DNA of 64,000 nt from contig CP092874.1 in assembly GCA_030710605.1 (NCBI GenBank), positions 68,629,011-68,693,010 of the forward strand, written 5' to 3'. Source of the DNA: Cordylochernes scorpioides. Lineage: Eukaryota; Arthropoda; Arachnida; Pseudoscorpiones; Chernetidae. A program made the position numbers and the translations under genes. Under the pieces are notes generated by a model. The model was not told the DNA's origin. It ran no database searches and saw nothing but the letters and a program-made list of their open reading frames with translations. Below, in pieces: positions 1 to 44,848 of this stretch. Positions within the stretch are counted from its first letter, which is position 1. Each line of letters starts with the position of its first letter.

Positions 1-988
1 CTTTTAAATCCTTTTATTTTATATGTATAGATGGCGCGTTATTGCTTTGTGTTGATAAAGGTTATATTAATAAAGATATAGCATATCATATAAAATATGG
101 GGGGCGGTAGCAAATAGGAGCAGTGTACATTTTAATAGGAGGGTATGATCTTATAAATTATTGTGTCTAATGGATCAAATAATAAAGAAAATTTGGATAT
201 ATATGAAATTAAGAGTAGAGTTCCTTTAAAAAATGGTCTGAAAAAGCATATAACTCCAACCGAGATAAAAAGGAAATGGTTACTGAAAGAATTCACCTTC
301 TCAAAGAGAAGCTTCCAATAAGGAAGAAGGACCCAAATAAGAAGATAAATTCGGAAATCTACGAAAGACTGGTCTTATACTATTATTCGACAATGAGGTT
401 TCATTTATTTATATCTACTCGTAAGTGATCCAAGATCCATGTGATTGCAAATGGAGAAAAAAATGCATAAAACCGGCATTTCGTACAACACTTTTTAATA
501 CTGATAACTAGAAATATATTTTATTTATAAACACATCTCTGTCAAATCCCCAGGCTTAGACCCCAATTGAATCTTTTTTTTATATAGTGAAAAATCAGGT
601 AAACCACAGAGACACTAGATGGTTTCTGGAAAGTTTAAGGACTTATGGGATGTTCACATGAGCGAAATATTCAACGAAGAAGCTATATTTACTGTAAACA
701 TCGTGCAGGGATGTAAAACATTAAGGTTACACACATAGAGAAAATATATGAGTTGTACAAACATTTTAAAGTATTTTTATATAATACACCACAATCCTTC
801 TCTTCCAAAAATGAAAACATCCTTTGTACATCGTTCATATATTTCAACCAGTTGCTATTTCTGGCACATAACGTTCATTTCATGCCCAGAGATATTGAGT
901 ATGATTAAAGAAACACTTGTTATTCAAATTAATCATAATGCATTAATTTTATTGTGATTTCTAGAAATTAAATAGAGAGAGAGAAATA
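1..988. other. Unassigned AT-rich sequence with a short coding-like trace
   Basis: No gene is recognised here. On the plus strand about 170-430 reads as two overlapping lysine-rich open frames; the second runs from an ATG at 277 to a stop near 428 and includes the peptide EKLPIRKKDPNKKINSEIYE. Together they look like a short decayed coding fragment, possibly from a mobile element, with a frameshift near 275. The rest, including the open frame at 748-957, shows no motif and is probably non-coding. Confidence 0.3.
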
Positions 989-989
989 T

Positions 990-1310
990 TAAAAATAAAA
1001 AATGGCATCTCCTGACCAAGAGCACATATGCTTTTCAGATGGCAGAGCGTCATCTGGTAGAATAGAAATAACCTAAACATTGATTTAGCCTGTTCCTTTA
1101 TATTTGGCCACACCAATTTTTCGATAAATCAAGAAAAGCCACCCACAAACGCGTTTCGCGCTGTTGGTGCTCATCAGCGTGTAGTAGGCTATATCACTGC
1201 GACCAAAAATATTTTTGGTCGCAGAGGCATCTTGAGAAACTAAGAAATGGGTATTTAAGGAACAAATTTGCGTAAATACGCTTAACACATAAAAAATATG
1301 CAAAATTTAT
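990..1310 (-). repeat. Retrozyme-like repeat copy with variant hammerhead
   Basis: This is a copy of the dispersed family whose hallmarks are a block with GGCATATCCTGACC, a GATGGCGCTCTGCC block, a TGATTTAGCCTGTTCC block and a central hammerhead ribozyme. In minus orientation the ribozyme at 1143-1182 has core CUGAUGA and GAAA. Stem II has an A-C mismatch and stem I starts with a G-U pair, so activity is doubtful. Beyond the ribozyme lie the family's GGTCGCAG and GTAAATACGC blocks. No protein is encoded. Confidence 0.75.
1143..1182 (-). ncRNA. Hammerhead ribozyme motif, weakened copy
   Basis: Reading the minus strand: stem I strand, core CUGAUGA, stem II GCAC/GCGC around loop CAACA, GAAA, a CGCG mini-loop, U16.1 and U17, then the second stem I strand. 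All invariant core residues are present. The mismatch in stem II and the weaker stem I distinguish it from the two perfect copies near 16.4 and 16.8 kb. Whether it cleaves is unknown. Confidence 0.6.
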
Positions 1311-3571: not shown

Positions 3572-3878
3572 GGTCAGGTGTGGATATTAAAAACAAATTA
3601 GGCATATCCTGACCACTAACTTGAGCGTTTTTTTAGATGGCAGAGCGCCATCTAGACGTTCATTTAACCTGTTATTGATATTTGACCTAACCATTTTTTT
3701 TGATAAATCAAGAAAAGTCAACCACGAACGCGTTTGAGGATGCTGGCCCTCGTCAGCGTAATACAGGCTGTACCTCTACGATCAATTTCTGTTCCACTAG
3801 ATGGCGCGTGACATCTAAAAAACGCTCGTGTTTGTGGCTAGGATATGCCTAAATTGTTTTTAATATACATATAGTTAA
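3572..3878. repeat. Retrozyme-like foldback copy with a broken hammerhead
   Basis: The outer arms (GGCATATCCTGACC at left, GGATATGCC at right) are inverted. The centre holds the hammerhead region on the minus strand at about 3722-3761. CUGACGA is retained, but the GAAA box is changed to CAAA and stem II is disrupted, so this copy should not be self-cleaving. The GATGGCAGAGCGCCATC block of the family is present. Confidence 0.7.
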
Positions 3879-6721: not shown

Positions 6722-8037
6722 CCCTTAAGTACTCGCGCGGGGCCTGATAGACCCCAGACACACTTATTTCATTAAATATCTAGAATTCTATAAAACATTT
6801 GGAGATCAAAACTTTAGTAGCTTAATTTTATATGACAATGATTATGCAGACATATTAACTTTATTTTGTTGCCCTATAATAGACAATAAAATGGAGTTGG
6901 GGTCCACTGGACCCCGCGCGAATAATAACGTAACTTTTAATTTTCAAGCATGGTGAAATAGGTAAGCTGCCTTATAGCTCGGCAATACTTTATATCCTTT
7001 ATCTATGACTTCCACTTAGGTTTGTAGGAACAATTAATAAAAATAAAACTGAAATTCCCCCAATTTATTTTTGTTACAAAAGCTACGTTCTCAACTCACT
7101 ATTTCATCTTTGGATTCAAGAAAAGAGAGAGTACACTGATTTAATATGTACCAAAAAATCTAAAGCAGTTATTTTAATTTCAATCATTAACTCTACAAAA
7201 CAGATTCTGAAAATCTGGTGGAAAATCTAAATCAGAGATTATAACTTTTTAAAATAAACAAAATCAGGTGTTGATATAGGTGATCAATTGTGTAAAATTA
7301 CACAGTAAGCAGGGGGACAAGGAGATGGCCATTGTGCCTCTTTTCTGATCTCGTCAATGTTTCAACAAAAGTTATATATAAAAAGGCCAAAAATTTGGAA
7401 AAATTAAAAAGAAAATCGTTTATTGAAGAGATTGAATTTGGGCTAATTGACCCGAACCTACAAAAACGGGAAAAATAAATCTTTTCTGCCAAAAGATATC
7501 AAAAATTTTATATCTACACATGCTTCTACTGATGAGCCACAAGAAAAGTCCTAAAATTCTATAATTAATTGACAAATATGAAGTTCTTTAGTTTCTTCAG
7601 GAATAAAATCAGCAAGGGTCATCATCAGGGAAACAGAAGTGTTGCCAATTTTGTGATCGCTCCAAGACCGAAAATCCAAAATAATATCTGCTGAATGCGC
7701 TAAACACATTTATACTGGACACTCAACAAGACTTTGCAAGAAGTGTGCACTAGAATAATTTATATTTTCATTTATATTTTTGCGGAAATGGTTTGTATAT
7801 ATTGATATTTTAGATTTTTTGCCTTATTACCAATTTCATCAAATAAAAATAATTAATAATGTAAGTTTTAATAATAAATTGATATATTTGTAAACTAGAG
7901 AGTGTATTAATCTGGCTGCAAGCAAAAATTATATCTATATTTTATTTTTCTAAGATTTTATTCATTGTAGAATATTGGGGTCTGCAAGACCTCGCGCGAG
8001 TACTAACGTCAGTAAAATAGGCGCGAGTAACTAAGGG
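6722..8037 (+). mobile_element. piggyBac-like transposon, 1.3 kb, defective
   Basis: The element sits between TTAA at 6718-6721 and TTAA at 8038-8041. Its ends are CCCTTAAGTACTCGCGCG and, inverted, CCCTTAGTTACTCGCGCC. Subterminal GGTCC-type palindromes occur near both ends (6745, 6900, 7980). The uninterrupted LTR at 34.2 kb shows a single TTAA at this position, so the target duplication is confirmed inside the window. Most of the transposase gene is lost; a C-terminal remnant remains at about 7320-7765. Confidence 0.9.
7320..7765 (+). pseudogene. piggyBac transposase C-terminal remnant
   Basis: Plus-strand translation gives RWPLCLFSDLVNVSTKVIYK followed by LKRKSFIEEIEFGLIDPNLQ. This matches the layout of the end of the piggyBac catalytic domain (RWP, ...N...IY, ...R..F...L...LI.P.L). 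Further on, after stops and a frameshift, CQFCDRSKTENPK and then CAKHIYTGHSTRLCKKC recall the Cys-rich C-terminal domain. Catalytic Asp residues lie upstream and are missing, so it cannot be functional. Confidence 0.7.
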
Positions 8038-8282
8038 TTAATCTAATGTTATTGTTAATTAAACAATAATTTATGAGATCTAGCCTCTGATTCTCTTACA
8101 GAAATGTTCAAATGTATGCGTGTAGATAAAGGGTAGAAAATCATTTCAGAAGTATTGTGTAAAATTTCAACCAGTTTCATTTTTGTTGCAATCAGAGATG
8201 GTGAGAAAAAATGTTTCAGAAACTTTAGAACACTCCTCTTATATAGTTTTTATGTTAGAAATCATGAAAAAAAAATAGAAAA

Positions 8283-8440
8283 TTGGTCAGGTGTTGTTAT
8301 TATGGTTGGAAATGGCCAAATATCTTTGGAACAAGCTAAATCAACGTTTAGTTTATATTTGTTCCACTAGATGGCGCTCTGCCATCTTAAATGCTCACAT
8401 GAGCGGTCAGGAACTGCCAATTTTGTTTTTAAAAAAGTTT
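8283..8440 (+). repeat. Retrozyme-like repeat, truncated copy
   Basis: Contains GGTCAGGTGTTG, the AATGGCCAAATATC block, AGCTAAATCAACGTTTAG, TGTTCCACTAGATGGCGCTC and a final GGTCAGGA, all family hallmarks. The hammerhead segment is absent, so this is a deletion derivative. Confidence 0.7.
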
Positions 8441-12298: not shown

Positions 12299-12390
12299 CT
12301 TGATTGTTGAAAGCTACATAATTGTCTTGTTCAGTTTATGACACCGTTTTATATATAAATTGAAGATATAGTATATAGATTGAAGATATA

Positions 12391-12897
12391 TCTCTATATA
12401 TATAAAAATGAATGTTTGTATGTTTGTTTGTCTGTTTGTCTGTATGTCCGGTATACAAATTCGCAGTAGTTCACTAATTCAAACAAATATTTCCATACAT
12501 AGGTAAAAAAACACGGGGAAGACGATAGGCTATTTTAAAAAATATATAAACCAATTATTAAAACTATATGTTTTTAGTCAGAAAATGATGATGACGATAT
12601 TGCTGTATCATGTTTGATTATCAGATACAAAATTCCAAAAAGCAGAGACCACGGGTGAAACCAGTTCATTATTTTGTACGCAGGAACAAAATTCTAACAG
12701 AAAAAACATTCATTCGAGGAAAAAACAAAAGCCAGATCATCTTTCTATAAAAATATCGCTTCTCAGACACAAAGTTTGGAGCGGGACGTTTCACAAGAGT
12801 GACATCCACGGCGCCAATTTATAATTGTAACGAATAGTATTTGAATAAAAACATTTAATCGGGTAAAACCCGGGCGTTGCCCGGGTCATTCGGCTAG
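12391..12897 (+). mobile_element. Non-autonomous Helitron, copy 2
   Basis: Starts TCTCTATATATATAAAAATG after a host A. It ends with the hairpin ACCCGGGCGTTGCCCGGGT, then CATTCGGCTAG before a host T: a 5' TC, a 3' hairpin and CTAG with A|T insertion, as expected for Helitrons. It is 507 bp and close in sequence to the copy at 15736-16250, in the same orientation on the other side of the Penelope-like element. No RepHel gene is present. Confidence 0.9.
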
Positions 12898-13159
12898 TAG
12901 TTTATAAAGGATTGATAACTCTCTACTTGTTCCTATAATAGGTAAAATGCTTATTACCACCATTATCTACTTGGTTAAATATCAATGAATCAATCCAATG
13001 AAACTATAATAGATTAATGTGTATGAACGAACAGGCAGGAAATTCATCATTCGAGTTGGCTAGATGTGAAGAATAGTCTTTTTTGATAAGCTAGGTCTGT
13101 TTGGAGATTATTTTAATGACAGTTTATTCAAGAATAATATATATATATATATATATGTT
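12898..13159. other. Unique intronic stretch with TA dinucleotide run
   Basis: No open frame or repeat is recognised except a (TA)n tract near 13138-13156. Confidence 0.4.
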
Positions 13160-15720
13160 CATAAAGGGCACATCTTGGATTCAATAGATAATCTTTTATT
13201 TCCGATATTTCAATGGGCTAAACGGCCATCTTTTTCAAAGATCTCATCCCCTCTCGCGACAAGCCGCGCATTACACTTGAGACACGGGCGTCTCACAATC
13301 TCTTCGGGCGAAAATCATCCAAATGAAAATGTAATGTATACAAATAAATATCGTACAATACTAATTTAAATAAATGAATAAATAGAGTGAAAAGTAAATA
13401 TCTATATATACAAAATAAATATTCGGCTATTGCATTATGAATGAAGACATTTCACTGAAGTTCATATATACATAGAGGTTCCTATTCTAGGAGCATCTAA
13501 ATTGTGTGTACATGTCCGGTATATCGATCTTTCGGTTTATGCTATTTCTGTCTTCCAAAGAACTCCAACTCTCCAAGAATAGCCTGCTATGCTTTTCGTT
13601 TATATCTTGGTGTATTATTGATGTTTGTTCAAAGTCTGGAATGTGGCCATTGATGAGAGCATGATCTACTAATAAGGAGGTCGGGTTATGGTGTTTTAGG
13701 GCTGATTTGTGCTGGTTGATTCTTTCTATTAATGGTTTACCGGTTTCTCCTATGTAGACGGCTTGGCAAGACTTGCATGGTATTTTGTATATGACATTGG
13801 TTCTATTGTTTGGTTCAGTGACCTTTTTTGTATCAGGATGGCGGAGGATGTTGTTAAGATTCGAGGTAGATTGGAATCTTGTTGTGATATTGTAGTATTT
13901 TAGTTTTCTGGCTATTCTTTCACAGCCATAGCTGTATGGTAGGGAGCAAAAAATGTTTTGGGATGAAGTTTGTCTATTGTTTGTGGGTGATATTCTCGGT
14001 CTGTAGAAATGCTTTTTGATAAACGGTTTAGGGTAATTGTTGCTAAGTAGTTCTTGAAATATCTTGGTTCTTTCTTTTTTTGTGTCGTTATCGTTTGTTG
14101 AAAAGTGTGTGGTTAGTCTTTTTGAAAGAGTTTTTACCACGGAAATTTTATGGTGGATGGGACCAAATGAATTGAAGTTCAGATAGCTTCCAGTATGGGT
14201 AGGTTTTCGGTATATTCGAGTTTCAATTCTATCTTGGTTTCTGGTTAATTGTATGTCTAGAAACGGTAGGGAGTTATTTTCTTCTATTTCAAAGGTGAAT
14301 TTTAGAAAGGGTTTGAGGTTATTCAAAAAATTCAGAATGGTGGAAAGATCAACTTTTGTTATGCATAGTATATCATCAATATAGCGTTTCCAGATTATTA
14401 CTTGTAGTTGTGCTGTGTCTGCAATTATTTTATCAATTTTGTCCATGTAGATGTTAGCTAATGCTGATGAAACAGGATTCCCCATTGGTAAACCTTTTTC
14501 TTGTTCGAAATATCTGTCTTTTTTTTATATCCAAAATAATTAAGTGCTAGACAAAGTTCAATCAGATCTATAAGGGCTTCTTTAGGGATAGGAAGGATGA
14601 TTTCCGGATGGTTGTGTAAGAATTCTTGAAGTGCCAGGATAGCTTCGTCATGCGGAATTGATGTATAGAGAGATTCTATATCAAAGGATACCATATAGCT
14701 GTCATGTGGAATTGGAATATTATTGATGGTTTCAATAGCTGCTACTGGATTGGGGACTGTATAAGGGAGTTTTTTCTGGAATGGTGAGATGATTGACGAC
14801 AAATATTTCGCGATAGGGTATAAGGGAGAGCCTGAGTATGATATTATGGGACGCAATGGGGTATTGGCTTTGTGGATTTTTGGTAGACCATATAAATTCG
14901 GAAGATTCTGGTTTGTTGCTTTGAAGGCTTCAAAGGTTTTACTATCTAGTTTGTATTTCCGTTTTATTCTGTTGAAATGTCTATTGAAATATTTTATGAG
15001 GTTGGGTAGAGGGTTTTTTGTCAGTGGCTGATATATTTCCTGATTTTGAAGTAACTGTTCGATTTTGTTGTTGTAATCTATTACGTCCATGATTACAGTA
15101 TTTCTGCCTTTATCTGAAGGAGTTATGATGATTTGTTTGTTTTCTTTTAAATACTTTATAGTGTTTCTTTCATCTCTATTTAAATTTGTCTTGTTTTGCG
15201 TTTCCAATTTCTTAATGATCGGGGTTATTTCTGTTCTAATTCTTGGCTTTTGGTCGTCTGGGAGTTTTTTTATTGCATTTTCTATTGCGGCTAAAGTCTT
15301 GGGAGTGTTGATTTTTTGGGAAGGTACAAAGTTTAGACCTTTTGATAGGAGGTTTGTTGTTTCTGGATCGAATGTGTGACTTGAAAGGTTAATTACAGTG
15401 CTTTGATCTGTTTGCCGTGTAGACTTATTCGACCAATTCTGTAGCTTCTTTGAATGTTTTTGTTGTAGAGAAACTCTCTTATTTTTGCATTTTCTTTCTA
15501 GATATATGTTTAACTCATTAAAATATTCATCGCTGATCAGTTGTTGCAAAATTGGGGTAATTCTATTGATGTTTGATTGCAATTCGTTTATTCGGAAATG
15601 ACAATCAAACATCAATAGAATTACCCCAATTTTGCAACAACTGATCAGCGATGAATATTTTAATGAGTTAAACATATATCTAGAAAGAAAATGCAAAAAT
15701 AAGAGAGTTTCTAGGTCAGG
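13160..15720 (-). mobile_element. Penelope-like retroelement with inverted 5' end
   Basis: The minus-strand element encodes a Penelope-type reverse transcriptase fused to a GIY-YIG endonuclease (13487-15590). The segment beyond the coding start (15602-15710) is an inverted copy of about 108 bp of the ORF start (15478-15586), with about 20 bp between the arms. Such 5' inversions are common in Penelope insertions. Downstream of the stop, 13160-13260 holds a hairpin (GATGGCC-GTTTA-GCCCAT then TGAAAT) resembling class 1 foldbacks. It lies between two same-orientation Helitrons within a host-gene intron. Confidence 0.85.
13487..15590 (-). pseudogene. Penelope-like RT-GIY-YIG polyprotein with one frameshift
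   Basis: Reverse transcriptase motifs in order are LPNLYGLPKIHK, the motif A segment VSFDIESLYTSIP, GNPVSSALANIYMD and the catalytic YIDD (near 14375). The C-terminal part has NVIYKIPCKSCQAVYIGETG and RINQHK, the GIY-YIG nuclease core with a Cys pair, and ends at 13487. The reading frame shifts by one base around 14510-14525, in a run of T, between the LALNYFG block and the PMGNPV block. Otherwise both halves are open, about 700 codons in total, close to the usual length for the family. The true start is uncertain because the first 49 codons of the upstream frame come from the inverted copy. The enzyme makes target-primed cDNA. A sequencing or assembly slip in the homopolymer could explain the break. 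Confidence 0.85.
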
Positions 15721-15735
15721 CATTGAGATATATCT

Positions 15736-16250
15736 TCTCTATATATATAAAAAATGAATGTTTGTATGTTTGTCTGTCTGTATGTCCGGTATACAAATTC
15801 GCAATAGTTCACTAATTCAAACCAAAATTTCCATACATAGGTAAAAGAATACGGGGAAGACGATAGGCTATTTTAAAAAATATATAAATCAATTATTAAA
15901 ACTATATATTTTTAGTCAGAAAATGATGATGACGATATTGCTGTATCATGTTTGATTATCAGATACAAAATTATATCGGGAAAAATTCCAAAAAGCAGAG
16001 ACCACGGGTGAAACCAGTTCATTATTTTGTATACAGGAACAAAATTCTAACAGAAAAACCTTCATTCGAGCAGAAAACAAAAGCCAGATCATCTTTCTAT
16101 AAAAATATCGCTTCTCAGACACAAAGTTTGGAGCGGGACGTTTCACAAAAGTGACATCCACGGCGCCAATTTATAATTGTAACGAATAGTATTTGAATAA
16201 GGTACATTTAATAGGGTAAAACCCGGGCGTTGCCCGGGTCATTCGGCTAG
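15736..16250 (+). mobile_element. Non-autonomous Helitron, copy 3
   Basis: Starts TCTCTATATATATAA and ends with ACCCGGGCGTTGCCCGGGT then CATTCGGCTAG at 16250, followed by T. It is about 515 bp and very close to the copy at 12391. The two short open frames on opposite strands at 15946-16161 are shadows within it. Confidence 0.9.
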
Positions 16251-16251
16251 T

Positions 16252-16565
16252 TAAAAATAAAAAAGGCATATCCTGACCAGAGGCACATGTGCTTTACAGA
16301 ATGCAGAGCGCCATCTGGTGGAACAGAAATCAACTAAACATTGATTTAGCCTGTTCCCTGATATTTGGCCAACCCAATTTCTTGATAAATCAAGAAAAGT
16401 CATCCACGAACGCGTTTCGCACTGCTGGCGCTCGTCAGCGTGGAGTAGGCTGCACCACTGCGACCAAAGAGATTTTTGGTCCCAGAGGTTTCTTGGGAAA
16501 CCAAGTAATGAGTTTTTAAGGCCAAACCTGCGTAAATACGCTTAACACATGAAAATATGATAGAA
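16252..16565 (-). repeat. Retrozyme-like repeat, full monomer with intact hammerhead
   Basis: A minus-oriented monomer: hammerhead at 16404-16443, then the CTTTTCTTGATTTATCAAG block, TTGGCCAAATATCAGGG, TGATTTAGC, the GATGGCGCTCTGC block and GGTCAGGATATGCC (16262). On the other side lie GCTGCACCACTGCGACC, GGTCCCAGAGG and GTAAATACGCTTAACACAT. It abuts an inverted copy at 16562, so the pair forms a large head-to-head palindrome. No protein is encoded; any mobility would need an enzyme in trans. Confidence 0.8.
16404..16443 (-). ncRNA. Hammerhead ribozyme, type I, complete
   Basis: In the minus strand: stem I CCACG, core CUGACGA, stem II GCGC-CAGCA-GUGC (one G-U pair), GAAA, a CGCG mini-loop closed by A15.1-U16.1, U17, then CGUGG pairing perfectly with the first strand. 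A flanking U-A pair extends stem I. Position 7 of the core is known to tolerate any base, so CUGACGA is a valid core. The predicted cleavage triplet is GUU. Minimal hammerheads with a tiny stem III are known from Penelope-like elements and retrozymes. Self-cleavage is predicted, not shown. Confidence 0.85.
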
Positions 16566-16990
16566 AAAAAAATGGCGCTCTGTGCCTTCTGTAAAGCACA
16601 TGTGCTCCTGGTCAGGATATGCCTTTTTTTTTATTTTTAATATCAACACCTGACCTTTTTACTTATTTGTTTCTTTCATTTTTTTTTTTTTCATGTGTTA
16701 AGCGTATTTACGCAAGTTTGGCCTTAAATGCCCATTTATTGGTTTCACATGAAGCCTCTGGGACCAAAAATCTTTCTCCACGCTGACGAGCGCCAACAGC
16801 GCGAAACGCGTTCGTGGATGGCTTTTCTCGATTTATCAAGAAATTGGGTTGGCCAAATATTGGGGAACAGGCTAAATCAATGTTTAGTTGATTTCTGTTC
16901 CACCAGATGGCGCTCTGCCTTCTGAAAAGCACATGTGCTTCTCAGATGGTAGAGCGCCATCTAATGGAACAGAATTTCTGTTATTATATT
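16562..16990 (+). repeat. Retrozyme-like repeat, about 1.25 tandem monomers
   Basis: The ATGGCGCTCTG block occurs at 16572 and again at 16907, 335 bp apart in the same orientation. Between them the order is tail block, GGTCAGGATATGCC, T-rich tract, GTGTTAAGCGTATTTACGC, GGGACCAAAAATC, hammerhead, then TTATCAAGAAATTGGG and TTTAGTTGATTTCTG. A head-to-tail partial dimer is what a retrozyme copied from circular or multimeric RNA would leave. From 16941 a short inverted piece of the same family follows. Confidence 0.75.
16778..16817 (+). ncRNA. Hammerhead ribozyme, type I, complete
   Basis: Stem I is CCACG (16778-16782) with CGTGG (16813-16817). The core CUGACGA is at 16783-16789. Stem II is GCGC (16790-16793) with GCGC (16799-16802) around CAACA. 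GAAA is at 16803-16806, the CGCG mini-loop at 16807-16810, U16.1 at 16811 and the predicted cleavage-site residue U17 at 16812. All invariant positions and every stem pair are present, which is unlikely by chance in 40 nt. Confidence 0.87.
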
Positions 16991-17588: not shown

Positions 17589-17764
17589 CTATGACACAAT
17601 GATCCAATGTTAGATACATGTTACGTATTAGATTCACATGTGCAATCTACATCAAATAATATACCTTTTTAACACATAAACTTTTTCACATAGTATTATT
17701 TTCTACATGAAGTAGTTTTAGCGCCTATTTTTTCGAAGAGGCGACCATATATATATATTAAAAA

Positions 17765-18100
17765 CAAAGTAGGCATATCCTGACCAGGAGCACATGTGCT
17801 TTTCAGAAGGCAGAGCGCCATCTGGTGGAACAGAAATCATCTAAACATTGATTTAGCCTGTTCCCTGATATTTGGTCGCAGTGGTACAGCCTACTCCACG
17901 CTGACGAGCGCCAACAGCGCAAAACGCGTTCGTGGAAGGCTTTTCTTGATTTATCAAGAAATTGGGTTGGCCAAATATCAGGGAACAGGCTAAATCAATG
18001 TTTAGTTGATTTCTGTTCCACCAGATGGCGCTCTGTCTTCTGAAAAGCACATGTGCTCTTGGTCAGGATATGCCTACTTTGTTTTTAATATAAAACCTGA
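17765..18100 (+). repeat. Retrozyme-like foldback copy, mutated hammerhead
   Basis: Arms of about 110 bp, 17773-17877 and 17957-18080, are inverted copies carrying GGCATATCCTGACC, GAGCACATGTGCTTTTCAGA and the CAGAGCGCCATCTGGTGG block. The centre holds the ribozyme region at 17896-17935. The open frames on both strands here are palindrome shadows. Confidence 0.8.
17896..17935 (+). ncRNA. Hammerhead ribozyme, probably inactivated
   Basis: Identical to the complete copy at 16778 in stem I, core CUGACGA and stem II, but the GAAA box reads AAAA: the invariant G12 is changed to A. G12 is a catalytic residue in hammerheads, so this copy is expected to be inactive. Confidence 0.75.
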
Positions 18101-18129
18101 CATTTTATTTTTAATTTTTCTATTGTTTT

Positions 18130-18660
18130 TTCATATGTATGTCGTAAACCCCCGGGTAAGCCAACAAGTGAGTTGGAAGCAATCGGGGTTGAGTGGCAAG
18201 GCGTGCCGAGTGGGAAGTCCGCACGGGACAGTAAGGACAAAGTTTGGGATCAAAAGGCGCTCTCCCAGGACGTCTCAAGTGGCACCAGGACCGGGGAGAA
18301 GTTAAGGACTACCAGAGGAAAGCTAGGCGTCCAGACCGAAGCCGCGGGGGCAGGGGGGAGCCAAAAGGCGATACGAGGGCCGCTGTGAGATGACAACGGA
18401 CCTATTACTTAGCGTGCCTGTCAGAAATATCAACTGTAAACCAACTAACTGTCGACAGCAGGCCTGCCTTCCCTCTTCTCCCTGCCTGGATCCCCGGGGA
18501 TTGATTCTCATTGGTCAGTGACTTATGTGGGTCATCCTTCCCTCCCCTGGGGTCCGGTGGCAAACTGGTGCCATCTTAAGACGACTGAGAAGACGTCATA
18601 CTTTATTACTTACATAAGGCAGATTGGGATATTTTAGAGCAATAGAGTGGTTAAACATAA
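18130..18660. other. GC-rich island, unassigned
   Basis: About 450 bases (18150-18600) are far richer in GC than the surroundings, with purine-rich sequence to 18370 and then a stretch with CCCCGGGGATTG and CATTGGTCAG. The open frames here overlap on several frames without recognised motifs. It could be a regulatory region, an LTR or the 5' part of a mobile element. I cannot decide. Confidence 0.35.
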
Positions 18661-18674: not shown

Positions 18675-18770
18675 TCGATGCACTAGCGCGCCATCTGTTA
18701 TCAAATTATAAAACTACTAGACGAATGGCCCGGGCAACGCCTGGGGTTTACCCGAGTGCGAATATATTTT
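18675..18770 (-). repeat. Terminal scraps of foldback B and a Helitron
   Basis: GATGCACTAGCGCGCCATCTG (about 18679-18699) is the foldback B terminus. It is followed at about 18717 by CTAGACGAATGGCCCGGGCA and then ACGCCTGGG, the 3' hairpin end of a Helitron on the minus strand. Only these ends are recognised. Confidence 0.6.
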
Positions 18771-18779
18771 ACAAACGTT

Positions 18780-19632
18780 GTCTTGGGTGGACGCTATAGA
18801 CAGGGTGGTCTGTATAGACAGGTGTATGTATCACACAGCCGATAACAGGGTTGTCTAGGGTGGCCGCTATAGACAGGGTGGTCTGTATAGACAGGTGTAT
18901 GTATCACACTGCTGATAACAGGGTTGCCTAAAGTGACCGCTATAGACAGGGTGGTCTGTATAGACAGGTGTATGTATCACACAGCTGATAACAGGGTTGC
19001 CTGAAGTGACCGCTATAGACAGGGTGGTCTGTATAGACAGGTGATTGTAACACACTGATGATAACAGGGTTGCCTAAAGTGACCGCTATAGACAGGGTGG
19101 TCTGTATAGACAGGTGGATGTATCACACAGCTGATAACAGGGTTGTCTAGAGTGGCCGCTATAGACAGGTGTATGTATCACACAGCTGATAACAGGGTTG
19201 TCTAGAGTGGTCGCTATAGACAGGGTGGTCTGTATAGACAGGTGTATGTATCACACAGCTGATTACAGGGTTGTCTAGAGTGGTCGCTATAGACAGGGTG
19301 GTCTGTATAGACAGGTGGATGTATCACACAGCTGATAACAGGGTTGTCTAGAGTGGCCGCTATAGACAGGGTGGTCTGTATAGACAGGTGGATGTATCAC
19401 ACAGCTGATAACAGGGTTGTCTAGAGTGGCCGCTATAGACAGGGTGGTCTGTATAGACAGGTGGATGTATCACACAGCTGATAACAGGGGTGTCTAGAGT
19501 GGCCGCTATAGACAGGGTGACCTGTATAGACAGGTGGATGTAACACACTGCTGATAACAGGGTTGTCTAGAATGGCCGCTATAGACAGGTGGATGTAACA
19601 CACTGCTGATAACAGGGTTGTCTAGAGGGGGG
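18780..19632 (+). repeat. 73-bp minisatellite
   Basis: Around a dozen units with CGCTATAGACAGGGTGG, CTGTATAGACAGGTG, ATGTATCACACAGCTGATAA and CAGGGTTGTCTAGAGTGG. The start-to-start distance of the first two units is 73 bp. Some units lack the internal CAGGGTGGTCTGTATAGA part and are about 50 bp. TATAGACAG occurs twice per full unit, so the unit arose by an internal duplication. It lies in an intron of the host gene. Confidence 0.92.
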
Positions 19633-20350: not shown

Positions 20351-21018
20351 TATGGCCATGGTACAAAAATAATAAATATTTAAGTTATATTAATAAAGTT
20401 ATAATTAATTACACTAAATATGTGGTGAAAGCAGATGGGACAGAGTTAATGGTTATTAATATGGTACAAGCTTAAATAAGGACTATTAACTTATATAGCT
20501 TTGGTTAAATTACGATATATATATTTAGGTACACCATGCATAGCAGAAGAGTCAGGTGAGAATTGAGATTTTCTTGTCAGAGAACTCAGAGGTGTTTTGA
20601 CGGATTCCAACATTTGAAGTATCTACGAATAGAGGGTGATAGCAGGAGTGGCACCGCCAAAATTTGATTTTTTTAAGTCTTGGATTCATAATTATACTAA
20701 GAAAGTTTAGAAGAGGATTTCTGAAATTATGCAGTGTCCAGTTAGGTTCACTTTACCAATAAATGAATTATCAAAGGATAGAAAACAGTCTAAGGGGGGC
20801 AGAATGACGAAGCTTGAAATTTGGAGATTCGATTTCTTGAACAACAGATTCTAAAGGTACTGCTTTAGAATAAAAAATATAACGAAAAAATGAAAATACT
20901 TAATCTAAGGTTAAATTAAGGAGAGAAGAGTCGGACAAAATAAGTAAGTATATCTAGAAAATGTCCATTTTCACGGCTGAAGTAATATTAGGAAAAAAAC
21001 AATTTAAAAAACAAAAAT
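20351..21018. other. AT-rich intronic sequence, nothing recognised
   Basis: No open frame of note, no repeat shared with other parts of the window and no splice-compatible exon were seen. Confidence 0.4.
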
Positions 21019-21019
21019 A

Positions 21020-21296
21020 AAATGGTCAGGTGTTGATATTAAAAATAATGAAAGCATATCCTGACCAGGAGCACATGTGCTTATTAGATGGCAGAGCGCC
21101 ATCTAGTGGAACAGAAATCAATTATTCATTGATTTAACCTGTTCCCTGATATTTGGCCAATCCAATTTCATGATTTATCAACAGGTTATATCAATGAATA
21201 GTTGTTTCTGTTCCACTAGATGGCGCTCTGCCATCTAAAAAGCATATGTGCTCCTGGTCAGGATATGCTTTCATTATTTTTAATATTAGGAAGCCA
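21020..21296. repeat. Retrozyme-like foldback, hammerhead deleted
   Basis: Clean inverted arms: GCATATCCTGACCAGGAGCA, TAGATGGCAGAGCGCCATCT and TTCCCTGATATTTGGCCAA on the left, mirrored on the right up to GGTCAGGATATGC. The centre is only TTTCATGATTTATCA, so the ribozyme has been lost, leaving a compact MITE-like palindrome of about 275 bp. Confidence 0.85.
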
Positions 21297-22205: not shown

Positions 22206-24835
22206 AATATTGGAGCTGGTCTAGAGACAATACTCTCAGGAGATGTCGAGTGTAGATAGGAGCTGGTCTAGAGACAATACTCTCAGGAGATGTCGAGTGT
22301 AGATAGGAGCTGGTCTAGAGACAATAATCTCAGGAGATGTCGAGTGTAGTTAGGAGCTGGTCTAGAGACAATACCCTCAGGAGATGGCGAGTGTAGACAT
22401 ATGTAGAATTTCTATATTACATTGGCCTACCGTTGTAGCTGACATTGAATGTAGATAGGAGCTGGTCTAGAGACAATACCCTCAGGAGATGGCGAGTGTA
22501 GATAGTAGCTGGTCTAGAGACAATACTCTCAGGAGATGTCGAGTGTAGTTAGGAGCTGGTCTAGAGACAATACTCTCAGGAGATGTCGAGTGTAGATAGG
22601 AGCTGGTCTAGAGACAATACTCTCAGGAGATGTCGAGTGTAGTTAGGAGCTGGTCTAGAGACAATACCCTCAGGAGATGGCGAGTGTAGTTAGGAGCTGG
22701 TCTAGAGGCAATACCCTCGGGAGATGGCGAGTGTAGATAGGAGCTGGTCTAGAGACAATACTCTCAGGAGATGGCGAGTGTAGATAGGAGCTGGTCTAGA
22801 GACAATACCCTCAGGAGATGTCGAGTGTAGATAGGAGCTGGTCTAGAGACAATACCCTCAGGAGATGTCGAGTGTAGTCATATGTAGAATTTCTATATTA
22901 CATTGGCCTACCGTTGTAGCTGACATTGAATGTAGATAGAAGCTGGTCTAGAGACAATACTCACTAGATGTCGAGGGTAGATATATGTAGGATTCCAATA
23001 TTACATTGGTCTACCGTTGTGGCTGACATTGAATATAGATAGGAGCTGGTCTAGAGACAATACTCTCAGGAGATGTCGAGGGTAGATATATGTAGGATTC
23101 CAATATTACATTGGTATACCGTTGTAGCTGACATTGAATGTAGATAGGAGCTGGTCTAGAGACAATACCCTCAGGAGATGTCGAGGGTAGATATATGTAG
23201 GATTCCAATATTACATTGGTCTACCGATGTGGCTGACATTGAATGTAGATAGGAGCTGGTCTAGAGACAATACCCTCAGGAGATGTCGAGGGTAGATATA
23301 TGTAGGATTCCAATATTACATGGGTCTACCGTTGTGGCTGACATTGAATGTAGATAGGAGCTGGTCTAGAGACAATACCCTCAGGAGATGTCGAGGGTAG
23401 ATATATGTAGGATTCCTATATTACATTGGCCTACCGTTGTAGCTGACATTGAATGTAGATAGGAGCTGGTCTAGAGACAATACTCTCAGGAGATGTCGAG
23501 GGTAGATATATGTAGGATTCCAATATTACATTGGTATACCGTTGTAGCTGACATTGAATGTAGATAGGAGCTGGTCTAGAGACAATACCCTCAGGAGATG
23601 GCGAGTGTAGACATATGTAGGATTCCTATTTTACATTGGTATACCGTTGTAGCTGACAGTGAATGTAGATAGGAGCTGGTCTAGAGACAATACTCTCAGG
23701 AGATGTCGAGTGTAGACATTTGTAGGATTCCTATTTTACATTGGTATATCGTTGTAGCTGACAGTGAATGTAGATAGGAGCTGGTCTAGAGACAATACCC
23801 TCAGGAGATGGCGAGTGTAGACATATGTAGGATTCCTATTTTACATTGGTATACCGTTGTAGCTGACAGTGAATGTAGATAGGAGCTGGTCTAGAGACAA
23901 TACTCTCAGGAGATGTCGAGTGTAGACATATGTAGGATTCCTATTTTACATTGGTATATCGTTGTAGCTGACAGTGAATGTAGATAGGAGCTGGTCTAGA
24001 GACAATACCCTCAGGAGATGGCGAGTGTAGACATATGTAGGATTCCTATTTTACATTGGTATACCGTTGTAGCTGACAGTGAATGTAGATAGGAGCTGGT
24101 CTAGAGACAATACTCTCAGGAGATGTCGAGGGTAGATATATGTAGGATTCCTATATTACATTGGCCTACCGTTGTAGCTGACATTGAATGTAGATAGGAG
24201 CTGGTCTAGAGACAATACTCTCAGGAGATGTCGAGGGTAGATATATGTAGGATTCCTATATTACATTGGCCTACCGTTGTAGCTGACATTGAATGTAGAT
24301 AGGAGCTGGTCTAGAGACAATACTCTCAGGAGATGTCGAGGGTAGATATATGTAGGATTCCAATATTACATTGGTCTACCGTTGTGGCTGACAGTGAATG
24401 TAGATAGGAGCTGGTCTAGAGACAATACTCTCAGGAGATGTCGAGGGTAGATATATGTAGGATTCCTATATTACATTGGCCTACCGTTGTAGCTGACATT
24501 GAATGTAGATAGGAGCTGGTCTAGAGACAATACCCTCAGGAGATGGCGAGTGTAGACATATGTAGGATTCCTATTTTACATTGGTATATCGTTGTAGCTG
24601 ACAGTGAATGTAGATAGGAGCTGGTCTAGAGACAATACTCTCAGGAGATGTCGAGTGTAGACATATGTAGGATTCCTATTTTACATTGGTATACCGTTGT
24701 AGCTGACAGTGAATGTAGATAGGAGCTGGTCTAGAGACAATACTCTCAGGAGATGTCGAGGGTAGATATATGTAGGATTCCTATATTACATTGGCCTACC
24801 GTTGTAGCTGACATTGAATGTAGATAGGAGCTACT
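22206..24835 (+). repeat. Composite 47/105-bp minisatellite
   Basis: The 47-bp unit GGAGCTGGTCTAGAGACAAT plus CTCAGGAGATGTCGAG and GTGTAGATA is tandem at 22212-22400 and 22450-22880. From about 22880 it alternates with a 58-bp unit (TATGTAGGATTCC, ATTACATTGG, CTACCGTTGTAGCTGACA) to give a 105-bp composite, with starts at 23041, 23146 and 23251 and so on to 24835. Variant blocks such as GACAGTGAATG recur in runs, showing higher-order spread. It lies in an intron of the host gene. Confidence 0.93.
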
Positions 24836-28664: not shown

Positions 28665-28740
28665 TCGGGGCTGTTGGCTCTCGTCAGCGTGGTGCAGACT
28701 GTACCTCTACGTACTGTACCTTTTTTATTTTTTATTTTTT
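28665..28740 (-). repeat. Retrozyme-like remnant with half hammerhead
   Basis: The minus strand retains CCACG, CUGACGA and the AGCCAACAGC stem II region at about 28669-28693, preceded by GTAGAGGTACAGTCTGCA. The GAAA and second stem I strand are lost, so the ribozyme is truncated. Confidence 0.65.
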
Positions 28741-35371: not shown

Positions 35372-38300
35372 CCTGGTGTTCCAGAATGAGAGGTTGTGGC
35401 GACAATGGGAGTGATCTCGGGTTATATTTGTGTTCCAGAGTGGGAGGTTGCGGCGACTATAGAAGTGATCTCGGGTTATATTTGCGTTCCAGAGTGAGAG
35501 GTTGCGCGACAATAGGAGCGATCTCGGGTTCTATTTGTGTTCCAGAGTGGGAGGTTGCGGCGACGATAGGAGTGATCTCGGGTTATATTTGTGTTCCAGA
35601 GTGGGAGGTTGCGGCGACAATAGGAGTGATCTCGGGTTATATTTGTGTTCCAGAGTGAGAGGTTGCGGCGACGATAGGAGTGATCTCGGGTTATATTTGT
35701 GTTCCAGAGTGAGAGGTTGCGGCGACAATAGGAGTGATCTCGGGTTATATTTGTGTTCCAGAGTGAGAGGTTGCGGCGACGAGAGGAGCGATCTCGGGTT
35801 ATATTTGTGTTCCAGAGTGAGAGGTTGCGGCGACGAGAGGAGCGATCTCGGGTTATATTTGTGTTCCAGAGTGAGAGGTTGCGGCGACAAGAGGAGCGAT
35901 CTCGGGTTATATTTGTGTTCCAGAGTGAGAGGTTGCGGCGACGAGAGGAGCGATCTCGGGCTATATTTGTGTTCCAGAGTGAGAGGTTGCGGCGACAATA
36001 GGAGCGATCTCGGGTTATATTTGTGTTCCAGAGTGAGAGGTTGCGGCGAAAATAGGAGTGATCTCGGGTTATATTTGTGTTCCAGAGTGAGAGGTTGCGG
36101 CGACGAGAGGAGCGATCTCGGGTTATATTTGTGTTCCAGAGTCAGAGGTTGCGGCGACGATAGGAGCGATCTCGGGTTATATTTGTGTTCCAAAGTGAGA
36201 GGTTGCGGCGACAATAGGAGAGATCTCGGGTTATATTTGTGTTCCAGAGTGAGAGGTTGCGGCGACGATAGGAGTGATCTCGGGTCATATTTGTGTTCCA
36301 AAGTGAGAGGTTGCGGCGACAATAGGAGCGATCTCGGGTTATATTTGTGTTCCAAAGTGAGAGGTTGCGGCGACAATAGGAGAGATCTCGGGTTATATTT
36401 GTGTTCCAGAGTGAGAGGTTGCGGCGACAATAGGAGCGATCTCGGGTTATATTTGTGTTCCAGAGTGAGAGGTTGCGGCGACAATAGGAGCGATCTCGGG
36501 TTATATTTGTGTTCCAGAGTGAGAGGTTGCGGCGACAATAGGAGAGATCTCGGGTTATATTTGTGTTGCAGAGTGAGAGGTTGCGGCGACAATAGGAGCG
36601 ATCTCGGGTTATATTTGTGTTCCAAAGTGAGAGGTTGCGGCGACAATAGGAGAGATCTCGGGTTATATTTGTGTTCCAGAGTGAGAGGTTGCGGCGACAA
36701 TAGGAGCGATCTCGGGTTATATTTGTGTTCCAAAGTGAGAGGTTGCGGCGACAATAGGAGAGATCTCGGGTTATATTTGTGTTCCAGAGTGAGAGGTTGC
36801 GGCGACAATAGGAGCGATCTCGGGTTATATTTGTGTTCCAGAGTGAGAGGTTGCGGCGACAATAGGAGCGATCTCGGGTTATATTTGTGTTCCAGAGTGA
36901 GAGGTTGCGGCGACAATAGGAGAGAACTCGGGTTATATTTGTGTTCCAGAGTGAGAGGTTGCGGCGACAATAGGAGTGATCTCGGGTTATATTTGTGTTC
37001 CAGAGTGAGAGGTTGCGGCGACGAGAGGAGCGATCTCGGGTTATATTTGTGTTCCAGAGTGAGAGGTTGCGGCGACGAGAGGAGCGATCTCGGGTTATAT
37101 TTGTGTTCCAGAGTGAGAGGTTGCGGCGACAAGAGGAGCGATCTCGGGTTATATTTGTGTTCCAGAGTGAGAGGTTGCGGCGACGAGAGGAGCGATCTCG
37201 GGCTATATTTGTGTTCCAGAGTGAGAGGTTGCGGCGACAATAGGAGCGATCTCGGGTTATATTTGTGTTCCAGAGTGAGAGGTTGCGGCGAAAATAGGAG
37301 TGATCTCGGGTTATATTTGTGTTCCAGAGTGAGAGGTTGCGGCGACGAGAGGAGCGATCTCGGGTTATATTTGTGTTCCAGAGTCAGAGGTTGCGGCGAC
37401 GATAGGAGCGATCTCGGGTTATATTTGTGTTCCAAAGTGAGAGGTTGCGGCGACAATAGGAGAGATCTCGGGTTATATTTGTGTTCCAGAGTGAGAGGTT
37501 GCGGCGACGATAGGAGTGATCTCGGGTCATATTTGTGTTCCAAAGTGAGAGGTTGCGGCGACAATAGGAGCGATCTCGGGTTATATTTGTGTTCCAAAGT
37601 GAGAGGTTGCGGCGACAATAGGAGAGATCTCGGGTTATATTTGTGTTCCAGAGTGAGAGGTTGCGGCGACAATAGGAGCGATCTCGGGTTATATTTGTGT
37701 TCCAGAGTGAGAGGTTGCGGCGACAATAGGAGCGATCTCGGGTTATATTTGTGTTCCAGAGTGAGAGGTTGCGGCGACAATAGGAGAGATCTCGGGTTAT
37801 ATTTGTGTTGCAGAGTGAGAGGTTGCGGCGACAATAGGAGCGATCTCGGGTTATATTTGTGTTCCAAAGTGAGAGGTTGCGGCGACAATAGGAGAGATCT
37901 CGGGTTATATTTGTGTTCCAGAGTGAGAGGTTGCGGCGACAATAGGAGCGATCTCGGGTTATATTTGTGTTCCAAAGTGAGAGGTTGCGGCGACAATAGG
38001 AGAGATCTCGGGTTATATTTGTGTTCCAGAGTGAGAGGTTGCGGCGACAATAGGAGCGATCTCGGGTTATATTTGTGTTCCAGAGTGAGAGGTTGCGGCG
38101 ACAATAGGAGCGATCTCGGGTTATATTTGTGTTCCAGAGTGAGAGGTTGCGGCGACAATAGGAGAGATCTCGGGTTATATTTGTGTTCCAGAGTGAGAGG
38201 TTGCGGCGACAATAGGAGCGATCTCGGGTTATATTTGTGTTCCAGAGTGAGAGGTTGAGGCGACAATAGGAGTGATCTCGGGTTCTATCTGTGTTCCAGA

Positions 38301-41300
38301 GTGAGAGGTTGCGGCGACAATAGGAGAGATCTCGGGTTATATTTGTGTTCCAGAGTGAGAGGTTGCGGCGACAATAGGAGCGATCTCGGGTTATATTTGT
38401 GTTCCAGAGTGAGAGGTTGCGGCGACAATAGGAGAGAACTCGGGTTATATTTGTGTTCCAGAGTGAGAGGTTGCGGCGACAATAGGAGTGATCTCGGGTT
38501 ATATTTGTGTTCCAGAGTGAGAGGTTGCGGCGACGAGAGGAGCGATCTCGGGTTATATTTGTGTTCCAGAGTGAGAGGTTGCGGCGACGAGAGGAGCGAT
38601 CTCGGGTTATATTTGTGTTCCAGAGTGAGAGGTTGCGGCGACAAGAGGAGCGATCTCGGGTTATATTTGTGTTCCAGAGTGAGAGGTTGCGGCGACGAGA
38701 GGAGCGATCTCGGGCTATATTTGTGTTCCAGAGTGAGAGGTTGCGGCGACAATAGGAGCGATCTCGGGTTATATTTGTGTTCCAGAGTGAGAGGTTGCGG
38801 CGAAAATAGGAGTGATCTCGGGTTATATTTGTGTTCCAGAGTGAGAGGTTGCGGCGACGAGAGGAGCGATCTCGGGTTATATTTGTGTTCCAGAGTCAGA
38901 GGTTGCGGCGACGATAGGAGCGATCTCGGGTTATATTTGTGTTCCAAAGTGAGAGGTTGCGGCGACAATAGGAGAGATCTCGGGTTATATTTGTGTTCCA
39001 GAGTGAGAGGTTGCGGCGACGATAGGAGTGATCTCGGGTCATATTTGTGTTCCAAAGTGAGAGGTTGCGGCGACAATAGGAGCGATCTCGGGTTATATTT
39101 GTGTTCCAAAGTGAGAGGTTGCGGCGACAATAGGAGAGATCTCGGGTTATATTTGTGTTCCAGAGTGAGAGGTTGCGGCGACAATAGGAGCGATCTCGGG
39201 TTATATTTGTGTTCCAGAGTGAGAGGTTGCGGCGACAAGAGGAGCGATCTCGGGTTATATTTGTGTTCCAGAGTGAGAGGTTGCGGCGACAAGAGGAGCG
39301 ATCTCGGGTTATATTTGTGTTCCAGAGTGAGAGGTTGCGGCGACGAGAGGAGCGATCTCGGGCTATATTTGTGTTCCAGAGTGAGAGGTTGCGGCGACAA
39401 TAGGAGCGATCTCGGGTTATATTTGTGTTCCAGAGTGAGAGGTTGCGGCGAAAATAGGAGTGATCTCGGGTTATATTTGTGTTCCAGAGTGAGAGGTTGC
39501 GGCGACGAGAGGAGCGATCTCGGGTTATATTTGTGTTCCAGAGTCAGAGGTTGCGGCGACGATAGGAGCGATCTCGGGTTATATTTGTGTTCCAAAGTGA
39601 GAGGTTGCGGCGACAATAGGAGAGATCTCGGGTTATATTTGTGTTCCAGAGTGAGAGGTTGCGGCGACGATAGGAGTGATCTCGGGTCATATTTGTGTTC
39701 CAAAGTGAGAGGTTGCGGCGACAATAGGAGCGATCTCGGGTTATATTTGTGTTCCAAAGTGAGAGGTTGCGGCGACAATAGGAGAGATCTCGGGTTATAT
39801 TTGTGTTCCAGAGTGAGAGGTTGCGGCGACAATAGGAGCGATCTCGGGTTATATTTGTGTTCCAGAGTGAGAGGTTGCGGCGACAATAGGAGCGATCTCG
39901 GGTTATATTTGTGTTCCAGAGTGAGAGGTTGCGGCGACAATAGGAGAGATCTCGGGTTATATTTGTGTTGCAGAGTGAGAGGTTGCGGCGACAATAGGAG
40001 CGATCTCGGGTTATATTTGTGTTCCAAAGTGAGAGGTTGCGGCGACAATAGGAGAGATCTCGGGTTATATTTGTGTTCCAGAGTGAGAGGTTGCGGCGAC
40101 AATAGGAGCGATCTCGGGTTATATTTGTGTTCCAAAGTGAGAGGTTGCGGCGACAATAGGAGAGATCTCGGGTTATATTTGTGTTCCAGAGTGAGAGGTT
40201 GCGGCGACAATAGGAGCGATCTCGGGTTATATTTGTGTTCCAGAGTGAGAGGTTGCGGCGACAATAGGAGCGATCTCGGGTTATATTTGTGTTCCAGAGT
40301 GAGAGGTTGCGGCGACAATAGGAGAGAACTCGGGTTATATTTGTGTTCCAGAGTGAGAGGTTGCGGCGACAATAGGAGTGATCTCGGGTTATATTTGTGT
40401 TCCAGAGTGAGAGGTTGCGGCGACGAGAGGAGCGATCTCGGGTTATATTTGTGTTCCAGAGTGAGAGGTTGCGGCGACGAGAGGAGCGATCTCGGGTTAT
40501 ATTTGTGTTCCAGAGTGAGAGGTTGCGGCGACAAGAGGAGCGATCTCGGGTTATATTTGTGTTCCAGAGTGAGAGGTTGCGGCGACGAGAGGAGCGATCT
40601 CGGGCTATATTTGTGTTCCAGAGTGAGAGGTTGCGGCGACAATAGGAGCGATCTCGGGTTATATTTGTGTTCCAGAGTGAGAGGTTGCGGCGAAAATAGG
40701 AGTGATCTCGGGTTATATTTGTGTTCCAGAGTGAGAGGTTGCGGCGACGAGAGGAGCGATCTCGGGTTATATTTGTGTTCCAGAGTCAGAGGTTGCGGCG
40801 ACGATAGGAGCGATCTCGGGTTATATTTGTGTTCCAAAGTGAGAGGTTGCGGCGACAATAGGAGAGATCTCGGGTTATATTTGTGTTCCAGAGTGAGAGG
40901 TTGCGGCGACGATAGGAGTGATCTCGGGTCATATTTGTGTTCCAAAGTGAGAGGTTGCGGCGACAATAGGAGCGATCTCGGGTTATATTTGTGTTCCAAA
41001 GTGAGAGGTTGCGGCGACAATAGGAGAGATCTCGGGTTATATTTGTGTTCCAGAGTGAGAGGTTGCGGCGACAATAGGAGCGATCTCGGGTTATATTTGT
41101 GTTCCAGAGTGAGAGGTTGCGGCGACAATAGGAGCGATCTCGGGTTATATTTGTGTTCCAGAGTGAGAGGTTGCGGCGACAATAGGAGAGATCTCGGGTT
41201 ATATTTGTGTTGCAGAGTGAGAGGTTGCGGCGACAATAGGAGCGATCTCGGGTTATATTTGTGTTCCAAAGTGAGAGGTTGCGGCGACAATAGGAGAGAT

Positions 41301-44300: not shown

Positions 44301-44604
44301 GGTTGCGGCGACAATAGGAGAGAACTCGGGTTATATTTGTGTTCCAGAGTGAGAGGTTGCGGCGACAATAGGAGTGATCTCGGGTTCTATCTGTGTTCCA
44401 GAGTGAGAGGTTGCGGCGACAATAGGAGAGATCTCGGGTTATATTTGTGTTCCAGAGTGAGAGGTTGCGGCGACAATAGGAGCGATCTCGGGTTATATTT
44501 GTGTTCCAGAGTGAGAGGTTGCGGCGACAATAGGAGAGATCTCGGGTTATATTTGTGTTCCAGAGGAGAGGTTGCGGCGACAATAGGAGCGATCTCGGGT
44601 TATA
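35372..44604 (+). repeat. 54-bp satellite, about 170 units, with higher-order structure
   Basis: The unit is GAGAGGTTGCGGCGACAATA, GGAGCGATCTCGGGTTATAT, TTGTGTTCCAGAGT (54 bp). From about 35.55 kb the phase is kept without an indel for roughly 9 kb. Variants (GACGAGAGG, GACAAGAGG, GAAAATAGG, GAGTCAGAGG, TTGCAGAGT, GGGTCATAT) recur in the same order. A marker block recurs at 35753, 36995, 38507, 40397, 41909 and 42881, distances of 23, 28, 35, 28 and 18 whole units. Because 54 is a multiple of 3 and units lack stops, both strands show open frames of 300-1100 codons (18-residue repeats such as RGCGDNRSDLGLYLCSRV). I consider these non-coding. The array is cut by the LINE/copia nest and resumes at 54913. 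Confidence 0.97.
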
Positions 44605-44848
44605 TTTGGCCTTGCAAGTACGCCGCCCGGCAGCCAGGCAGTACGCTGAGGTCCCCATACAAAGCGCACCAGTCGGGCTTGCAGTTTGGCGATGGTGGAG
44701 TCTGTGGGCAGGTTGCCGTGTAGATGATGCACCACGGCGGATAACACCAGCGAGTTGGCGGCTCTGGCTCGACCGACTAGGGAGAGGCCGCGGGTGAAGG
44801 GGACCTACCTCGTTATAGCACCCTCGAGCAGTGCGGGGAATTGTTGTT
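44605..44848 (-). repeat. Tx1-like LINE fragment, first copy of a 244-bp duplication
   Basis: This segment is almost identical to 51554-51797. On the minus strand it encodes part of the region after the reverse transcriptase (KLQARLVRFVWGPQRTAWLP, GGVLARP). It starts abruptly against the satellite at 44604 and ends where the copia 5' LTR begins at 44849. Confidence 0.9.

Follow-up and report, generated by a model that had tools for sequence, protein, structure and literature searches.

The window examined here, a 64,000-bp stretch of the genome of Cordylochernes scorpioides, a pseudoscorpion (arachnid) whose assembly comprises 2.62 Gb in 24 contigs, contains at positions 16251-16974 an inverted, partly tandem insert of a dispersed repeat. 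The left arm of this insert (16251-16547, minus strand) corresponds to positions 1-297 of one repeat unit and terminates near 16252 in a 3' end that we term T1, which is abutted by a Helitron-like insert. By eye, the left arm apparently continues head to tail into the region of a second 3' end, T2, of the preceding unit (16548-16571, minus strand). The right arm lies on the plus strand and is composed of two parts in head-to-tail order. The first part (16572-16694) covers unit positions 234-344 and includes the T1/T2 hairpin GGTCAGG...CCTGACC, and the second (16696-16942) covers positions 1-269 of the next unit. An inverted fragment (unit 266-220, at 16928-16974, minus strand) closes the right end, which is non-canonical; with this atypical end, and with the Helitron-like insert at its T1 end, the insert is not the clearest example of the layout of its family. 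An earlier note on this DNA had reported that the same blocks recur head to tail at 16572 and 16907, 335 bp apart, and this recurrence was confirmed.

Each arm contains a type I hammerhead with an intact invariant core. The predicted cut of the left one (16404-16443, minus strand) falls between 16409 and 16408, and that of the right one (16778-16817, plus strand) between 16812 and 16813. Since the two cores occupy opposite strands, a single transcript holds only one of them in sense. A motif scan of the window recovered the cores at 16438-16408 (minus) and 16783-16813 (plus), in agreement with the position, invariant core, type and cut site given in the earlier note, and located a third family core at 1177-1147 (minus) that the note had not listed; a further match at 7529-7561 is an unrelated chance hit. 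The plus copy reads CTGACGA-GCGC-CAACA-GCGC-GAAA-CGCGTT/CGTGG, with the slash marking the predicted cut after 16812. As read from the sequence, the family hammerhead has a stem I of 5-6 bp, a 4-bp stem II with a CAACA loop, and a stem III with just one A-U pair and a palindromic CGCG cap. Two details of the previous description require qualification. Both copies had been credited with a full stem II around the core; the core is intact in both, but stem II of the minus copy includes one G.U pair. The motif had also been called minimal, which is accurate for the very short stem III but not for stem I, which in other copies passes through an internal loop into a second short helix that covaries (pair 101-150). 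This outer part of stem I was lost from the plus copy at 16778.

In the suggested comparison with Rfam models, a scan of the window returned no hammerhead above the curated threshold. When run in E-value mode over 1.5 kb, Hammerhead_HH9 (gathering score 52) matched the plus copy below that threshold with 23.2 bits (E 0.0064) and the minus copy with 17.9 bits (E 0.33, chance level when taken alone). The same model matched all six of the other loci tested with 24.0-29.4 bits (E 0.0008-0.042), each under the gathering score. Rfam miRNA matches over the repeat were all sub-threshold and, we think, reflect its hairpin fold.

The minimal hammerheads of Penelope-like elements (PLEs) and Terminons, associated with the names of Cervera and de la Pena (2014) and Lunse (2017), reportedly favour dimers through a very short stem III. 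The present hammerhead resembles them in its very short stem III and differs from them in its stem I, whose internal loop and second helix bring it nearer to canonical type I. The axolotl ribozyme HHR_Amex1 has the same single-pair stem III with a palindromic tetraloop (PMC7229834, cited throughout, like PMC3846280, PMC11167929 and PMC7761336, for individual passages), and the axolotl retrozyme is described there as cleaving poorly alone and well as a dimer. By analogy, the pseudoscorpion hammerhead is likely to cleave poorly on its own and well as a dimer.

The earlier count of at least nine copies in the window depends on how copies are counted, as we find 16 family segments at 8 places (E<=1e-3). 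Besides the focal insert, these places comprise a copy of unit positions 1-300 with the third, near-intact ribozyme core (986-1287, minus strand), an inverted copy whose core is broken by loss of the GAAA (3572-3866), inverted fragments lacking a ribozyme (8267-8432), an inverted copy in which GAAA has become AAAA (17755-18134), an inverted copy whose arms stop short of the ribozyme (21007-21286), a short fragment with a partial ribozyme (28670-28708, minus strand), and an old copy in two fragments without a ribozyme (56002-56233, minus strand).

Several other elements occupy the window. The Helitron-like repeat adjoining the T1 end of the left arm (15722-16251, plus strand; about 530 bp) closes with a GC hairpin followed by CTAG, a terminus that we take to be a Helitron-like end motif, and has a full sister copy at 12379-12898 (91% alike) and parts at 63420-63548 and 18697-18755. 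Next to it is a decayed Penelope-like element (13487-15723, minus strand) with RVT_1 and GIY-YIG matches, two broken ORFs and, at 15469-15712, an approximately 244-bp palindrome of its own coding part. It represents a candidate helper type for the hammerhead repeat. As the coding part of that repeat, however, it was rejected, because the inverted stretch it carries is its own coding DNA and because the Helitron-like insert separates it from the repeat. LINE-type ORFs (RVT_1 with an endonuclease domain) are located at 59309-61429. A 54-bp tandem repeat fills 35376-44608 and 54911-55605 (171 and 13 copies) and leaves long ORFs on both strands, and tandem arrays with other periods are present at 22212-24832 (47/105/315 bp), 18777-19627 (73/146 bp) and 1501-2269 (94 bp).

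Searching the genome with a 35-nt hammerhead pattern (at most 3 mismatches) produced 40,291 matches, 20,122 on the plus and 20,169 on the minus strand. The reversed pattern produced 0 on either strand, and the matches are therefore not due to chance. The dispersed non-coding hammerhead repeat described previously is thus real and accounts for tens of thousands of pattern matches. Its organisation was analysed in 90 loci (L009-L098; 30 loci and 60 regions) that cover 94 of the 100 pattern matches listed, all exact and all from the first 43 Mb of contig C1. Because these loci were selected by an exact hammerhead match, ribozyme intactness among them is biased, and copies without a hammerhead are missed unless they lie nearby. 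Removal of duplicates (L016, L019, L025, L031 and L077, the last duplicating L073) left 85 independent loci; L001-L008, chosen by DNA similarity, were left out of the counts. Single ribozyme copies decay in a roughly neutral manner. Among 27 arms that had not been employed in picking loci, 13 of 321 core positions were changed (4.0%) as against 118 of 2,153 flanking positions (5.5%), a comparison in which no selection on single ribozyme copies is clearly seen, and all core positions were intact in 15 of these arms. Such near-neutral decay of individual copies is expected for dead inserts.

The repeat unit, as represented by a tandem copy in L030, is 349 nt long with 40% GC. The longest ATG ORF in the tripled unit encodes 48 aa; the unit is non-coding, has no reverse transcriptase or GIY-YIG ORF, and is not an autonomous Penelope-like element. 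When folded as a circle it reaches a minimum free energy of -115.1 kcal/mol (z = -8.9 versus 200 dinucleotide shuffles). Covariation was evaluated over 98 distinct sequences (95 locus arms, the L030 unit included, and 3 window arms). Standard pairs made up 96.3% of the pair cells, as compared with 94.1% in shuffles and 42-47% in slid controls, and double changes were found in 179 cells; shuffles averaged 57.7 such cells and reached at most 72, and slid controls gave 18-46. The number of pairs showing double changes (18) exceeds the shuffle maximum of 16 but not the slid controls (14-23). Covarying pairs include members of ribozyme stem I (101-150, 106-147) and stem II (120-130), and variation within the ribozyme is underestimated because the loci were chosen by hammerhead match. 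Head-to-tail runs across the unit border are present in 37 of the 85 loci, the longest spanning 824 bp (2.4 units), and no long head-to-tail arrays were seen among these sampled loci.

These characteristics uphold the previous description of the family as retrozyme-like, given its type I hammerhead, its 349-nt non-coding unit, its head-to-tail copies and its covarying, self-paired RNA. Metazoan non-LTR retrozymes from Acropora, Mytilus and Ambystoma share with it the type I hammerhead, head-to-tail copies, a non-coding unit of a few hundred base pairs, low GC and a strongly self-paired RNA (PMC7229834). Type I core order with an intact invariant core is a feature of that group, and the unit falls within its size and GC range (150-450 bp, GC below 50%). 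The pseudoscorpion family differs from the retrozymes of PMC7229834 in being dispersed, often inverted and bounded by two unlike ends; the word 'inverted' does not occur in the main text of that paper. A plant LTR retrozyme was rejected, as the core order is type I rather than type III and the inserts display inverted arms and partial head-to-tail runs rather than two LTRs.

The inserts have two characteristic 3' ends. In hammerhead sense, T1 lies at unit position 302 (...TTTTTAATAT, followed by AT-rich flank) and T2, 47 nt from it, at position 349 (...TTTTTTCAT, also followed by AT-rich flank). T1 sits in the loop of a hairpin predicted from GGTCAGG...CCTGACC. The 5' ends of the arms are variable, and copies are often 5'-truncated. 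Two 3' ends in inverted arrangement were found in 38 of the 85 loci (28 T1/T2, 2 T1/T1, 2 T2/T2, 5 T1/other and 1 T2/other), a single 3' end in 45 (33 T1, 6 T2, 6 other) and none in 2. The earlier note had regarded the head-to-head placement of two units as unusual; these counts indicate that it is a common layout in this family. When both ends are canonical, 28 of 32 inverted inserts are T1/T2, a heterotypic excess with p = 9.7e-6 against a 1:1 expectation and p = 4.9e-13 against independent ends. Target-site duplications (TSDs) of at least 8 bp flank 28 of 32 two-ended loci; in a mispaired control the rate is 40%, a high value owing to the AT-rich flanks. Among one-ended loci 17 of 45 have them, versus 11% in the control. 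TSDs are clearly seen in L048 (ATACGTAATAATAT) and L080 (ATATTTAATTCT).

This end structure bears directly on whether the family could be a palindromic MITE, the relic of a DNA transposon, with terminal inverted repeats (TIRs) as its long inverted repeats and with an incidental hammerhead. Many copies do resemble long TIR elements, for example those at 21007-21286 and 17755-18134. An element with two identical inverted ends is nevertheless largely refuted by the 28 of 32 inserts whose ends differ, and the single 3' end in 45 of 85 loci, the variable 5' ends of the arms, the head-to-tail runs in 37 of 85 loci and the covarying RNA helices also argue against this explanation, which we consider very improbable.

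The two arms of an insert are related to each other. Opposite arms of the same insert differ at 156 mismatches over 3,543 bp (4.4%; the 31 of 36 pairs that share at least 40 bp), whereas arms drawn from different inserts differ by 7.7% on average, with a minimum of 6.1% over 500 permutations. A few pairs have clearly different arms, as in the T2/T2 locus L013 with mismatches at 25 of 129 sites, which may, judging from its sequence, be a compound of two insertions. Such pairs are what would be seen if inverted pairs in general were separate neighbouring insertions, or insertions joined by recombination. That same-locus arms are on average more alike than chance, that TSDs bracket both arms and that T1/T2 pairing is in excess leaves this explanation with scarcely any probability.

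Retrozyme RNA could also have been moved by a LINE-type enzyme with the inverted copies arising through twin priming, and the window does hold LINE-type ORFs (59309-61429). Twin priming in LINEs produces inverted 5' parts and leaves an inverted arm without a fixed 3' end. The inserts described here have both outer ends fixed and differing, unlike the products of twin priming, and no poly-A was seen at their ends. A LINE origin is accordingly judged unlikely.

Where the arms meet, the junction points are scattered along the unit. Of 49 inverted junctions, 23 overlap by 1-17 nt, 4 abut and 22 carry extra bases. The overlaps would permit microhomology, and inverted arms might then derive from a single cDNA that primed itself or switched template, instead of from priming on two strands. 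A precedent is available in PMC3846280, where the inverted repeats of PLEs are attributed to self-priming and junction palindromes are read as the product of such priming on an antisense template. A single cDNA folding back on itself should, however, yield like ends, while 28 of 32 are unlike, and the 22 junctions with extra bases show no overlap. We therefore regard self-priming as improbable. The starts of the arms are informative about the template as well. None of 184 arm starts lies at position 142, the first base past the predicted ribozyme cut. Position 140 has five, including two that belong to a single duplicated locus, and position 30 has just as many. Given this lack of a cDNA-end pile-up at the ribozyme cut, cut linear monomers are not the evident template, and a circle or an uncut multimer fits better.

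PLEs of the same genome follow a similar insertion rule. Their ends read ...GATCCAATATATGCCTTTTTAATT (T1) or continue through a further tail to ...ATGGATTGCTCTATTTTCA (T2), and the PLE T1 end pattern has 65,068 genome matches (control 0), exceeding the hammerhead pattern in number. Among the PLE-end matches listed, several form close inverted pairs. Outward-facing pairs were counted only when PLE context was present at both ends, rather than at one or none, with T1 assigned when no tail motif was found and with seven duplicate or overlapping loci excluded. Six of the seven pairs are T1/T2, and the remaining one, at window positions 3193/3505, is T1/T1. By eye, the PLE inserts in L034 and L074 have the T1/T2 layout. 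A stem-loop is predicted in four of five folded PLE ends, L092 being the one without, and as the stem hardly varies it supplies no covariation evidence. At the level of sequence, the ends of the element and of the PLEs are weakly similar (p 0.02-0.22 for one subfamily and 0.21-0.53 for the other, in which the best match lies outside the T1 region for four of five PLE ends). The element and the PLEs thus appear to share an insertion rule and a stem-loop-plus-tail layout, with end sequences only weakly alike.

Published PLEs provide further parallels. The pLTR-bearing Penelope elements of Adineta vaga (PMC3846280) and the element PAc (PMC11167929) resemble the family in their inverted arms, a tail at one end, approximate TSD size, partial head-to-tail copies and a hammerhead upstream of the stem-loop at which reverse transcription starts. 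The former are described with inverted pLTRs, one of which has an optional 31-bp tail, and with TSDs of 8-10 bp in some copies and none in others; unlike ends in PLEs were accordingly already known (PMC3846280). According to PMC11167929, the PLE protein acts on both strands, cutting and extending each; an internal AC-rich stem-loop of the RNA is where reverse transcription begins, and the tail found in genomic copies corresponds to the interval separating two start sites. The family differs from PLEs in its 349-nt unit, which has no reverse transcriptase or endonuclease ORF, and in the stem sequence of its stem-loop. Its T1/T2 pairing is also unlike the behaviour of the anole PLE in vitro, where no difference in start site was seen between the strands (PMC11167929).

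Given these parallels, the family could be a deletion derivative of a PLE that retains only the pLTR, having inherited hammerhead and ends from an ancestral autonomous element and being copied from linear transcripts with no circle. PLE pLTRs bear type I hammerheads (PMC7761336, PMC11167929), the order of hammerhead, stem-loop with T1 and then tail agrees, and hammerhead mutants of the anole PLE still insert in vitro, leaving insertion unaffected (PMC11167929). Opposed to this are the end sequences, which are barely alike between PLEs and the element, the covarying rod formed by the unit, which is typical of retrozymes, and the head-to-tail runs of up to 824 bp, which require a multimer or a circle. 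A pLTR derivative is possible, though on balance we doubt it.

The reading that we prefer, with a probability of roughly 0.7, is that PLE proteins mobilise this family, a non-autonomous retrozyme, by two-sided target-primed reverse transcription. The 349-nt RNA would be transcribed from tandem copies, or a circular or multimeric form of it would be copied, and it would fold into a rod in which the type I hammerhead would cut to unit length. As stem III is palindromic, the hammerhead probably acts as a dimer. A Penelope-like protein would cut AT-rich DNA on both strands, and reverse transcription would be primed from both cut ends, starting, as the ends of the inserts suggest, at T1 on one side and at T2, 47 nt further 3', on the other. 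The two cDNAs would extend to variable points and then be joined. The resulting insert would have two inverted arms, one ending short and the other with a tail, and would be flanked by a TSD. Should one side alone succeed, a one-armed, 5'-truncated copy would result, usually ending at T1. Under two-sided priming, a head-to-head pair such as the focal one is an expected product. More tentatively, and with somewhat less than even confidence, we propose that animal retrozymes are moved by Penelope-like proteins through two-sided priming in which each strand has its own fixed start site on the RNA, T1 for the first and T2 for the second.

Neither animal hammerhead retrozymes nor PLE hammerheads are new. 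The Penelope-like insertion layout of the hammerhead repeat is absent from the earlier note, and a literature search restricted mostly to titles and abstract openings outside subscription journals found no report of two-ended T1/T2 retrozyme inserts and no paper on a pseudoscorpion hammerhead ribozyme. Known retrozymes are hammerhead repeats in tandem that give rise to circular RNAs. PMC7229834 puts PLEs forward as a strong candidate for the enzyme that mobilises animal retrozymes but does not settle the question. A retrozyme-like family with PLE-signature ends, residing amid abundant PLEs that follow the same rule, makes the PLE hypothesis directly testable. Priming on two strands at two start sites has been shown in vitro for one anole PLE (PMC11167929), and the family offers in vivo evidence on this process in large numbers. 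If the more tentative proposal is correct, the T1/T2 pairing would be a genomic record of an asymmetric dimer acting on a small, perhaps circular, hammerhead RNA, and asymmetric two-site priming would account for inverted pLTRs and tails in PLEs generally.
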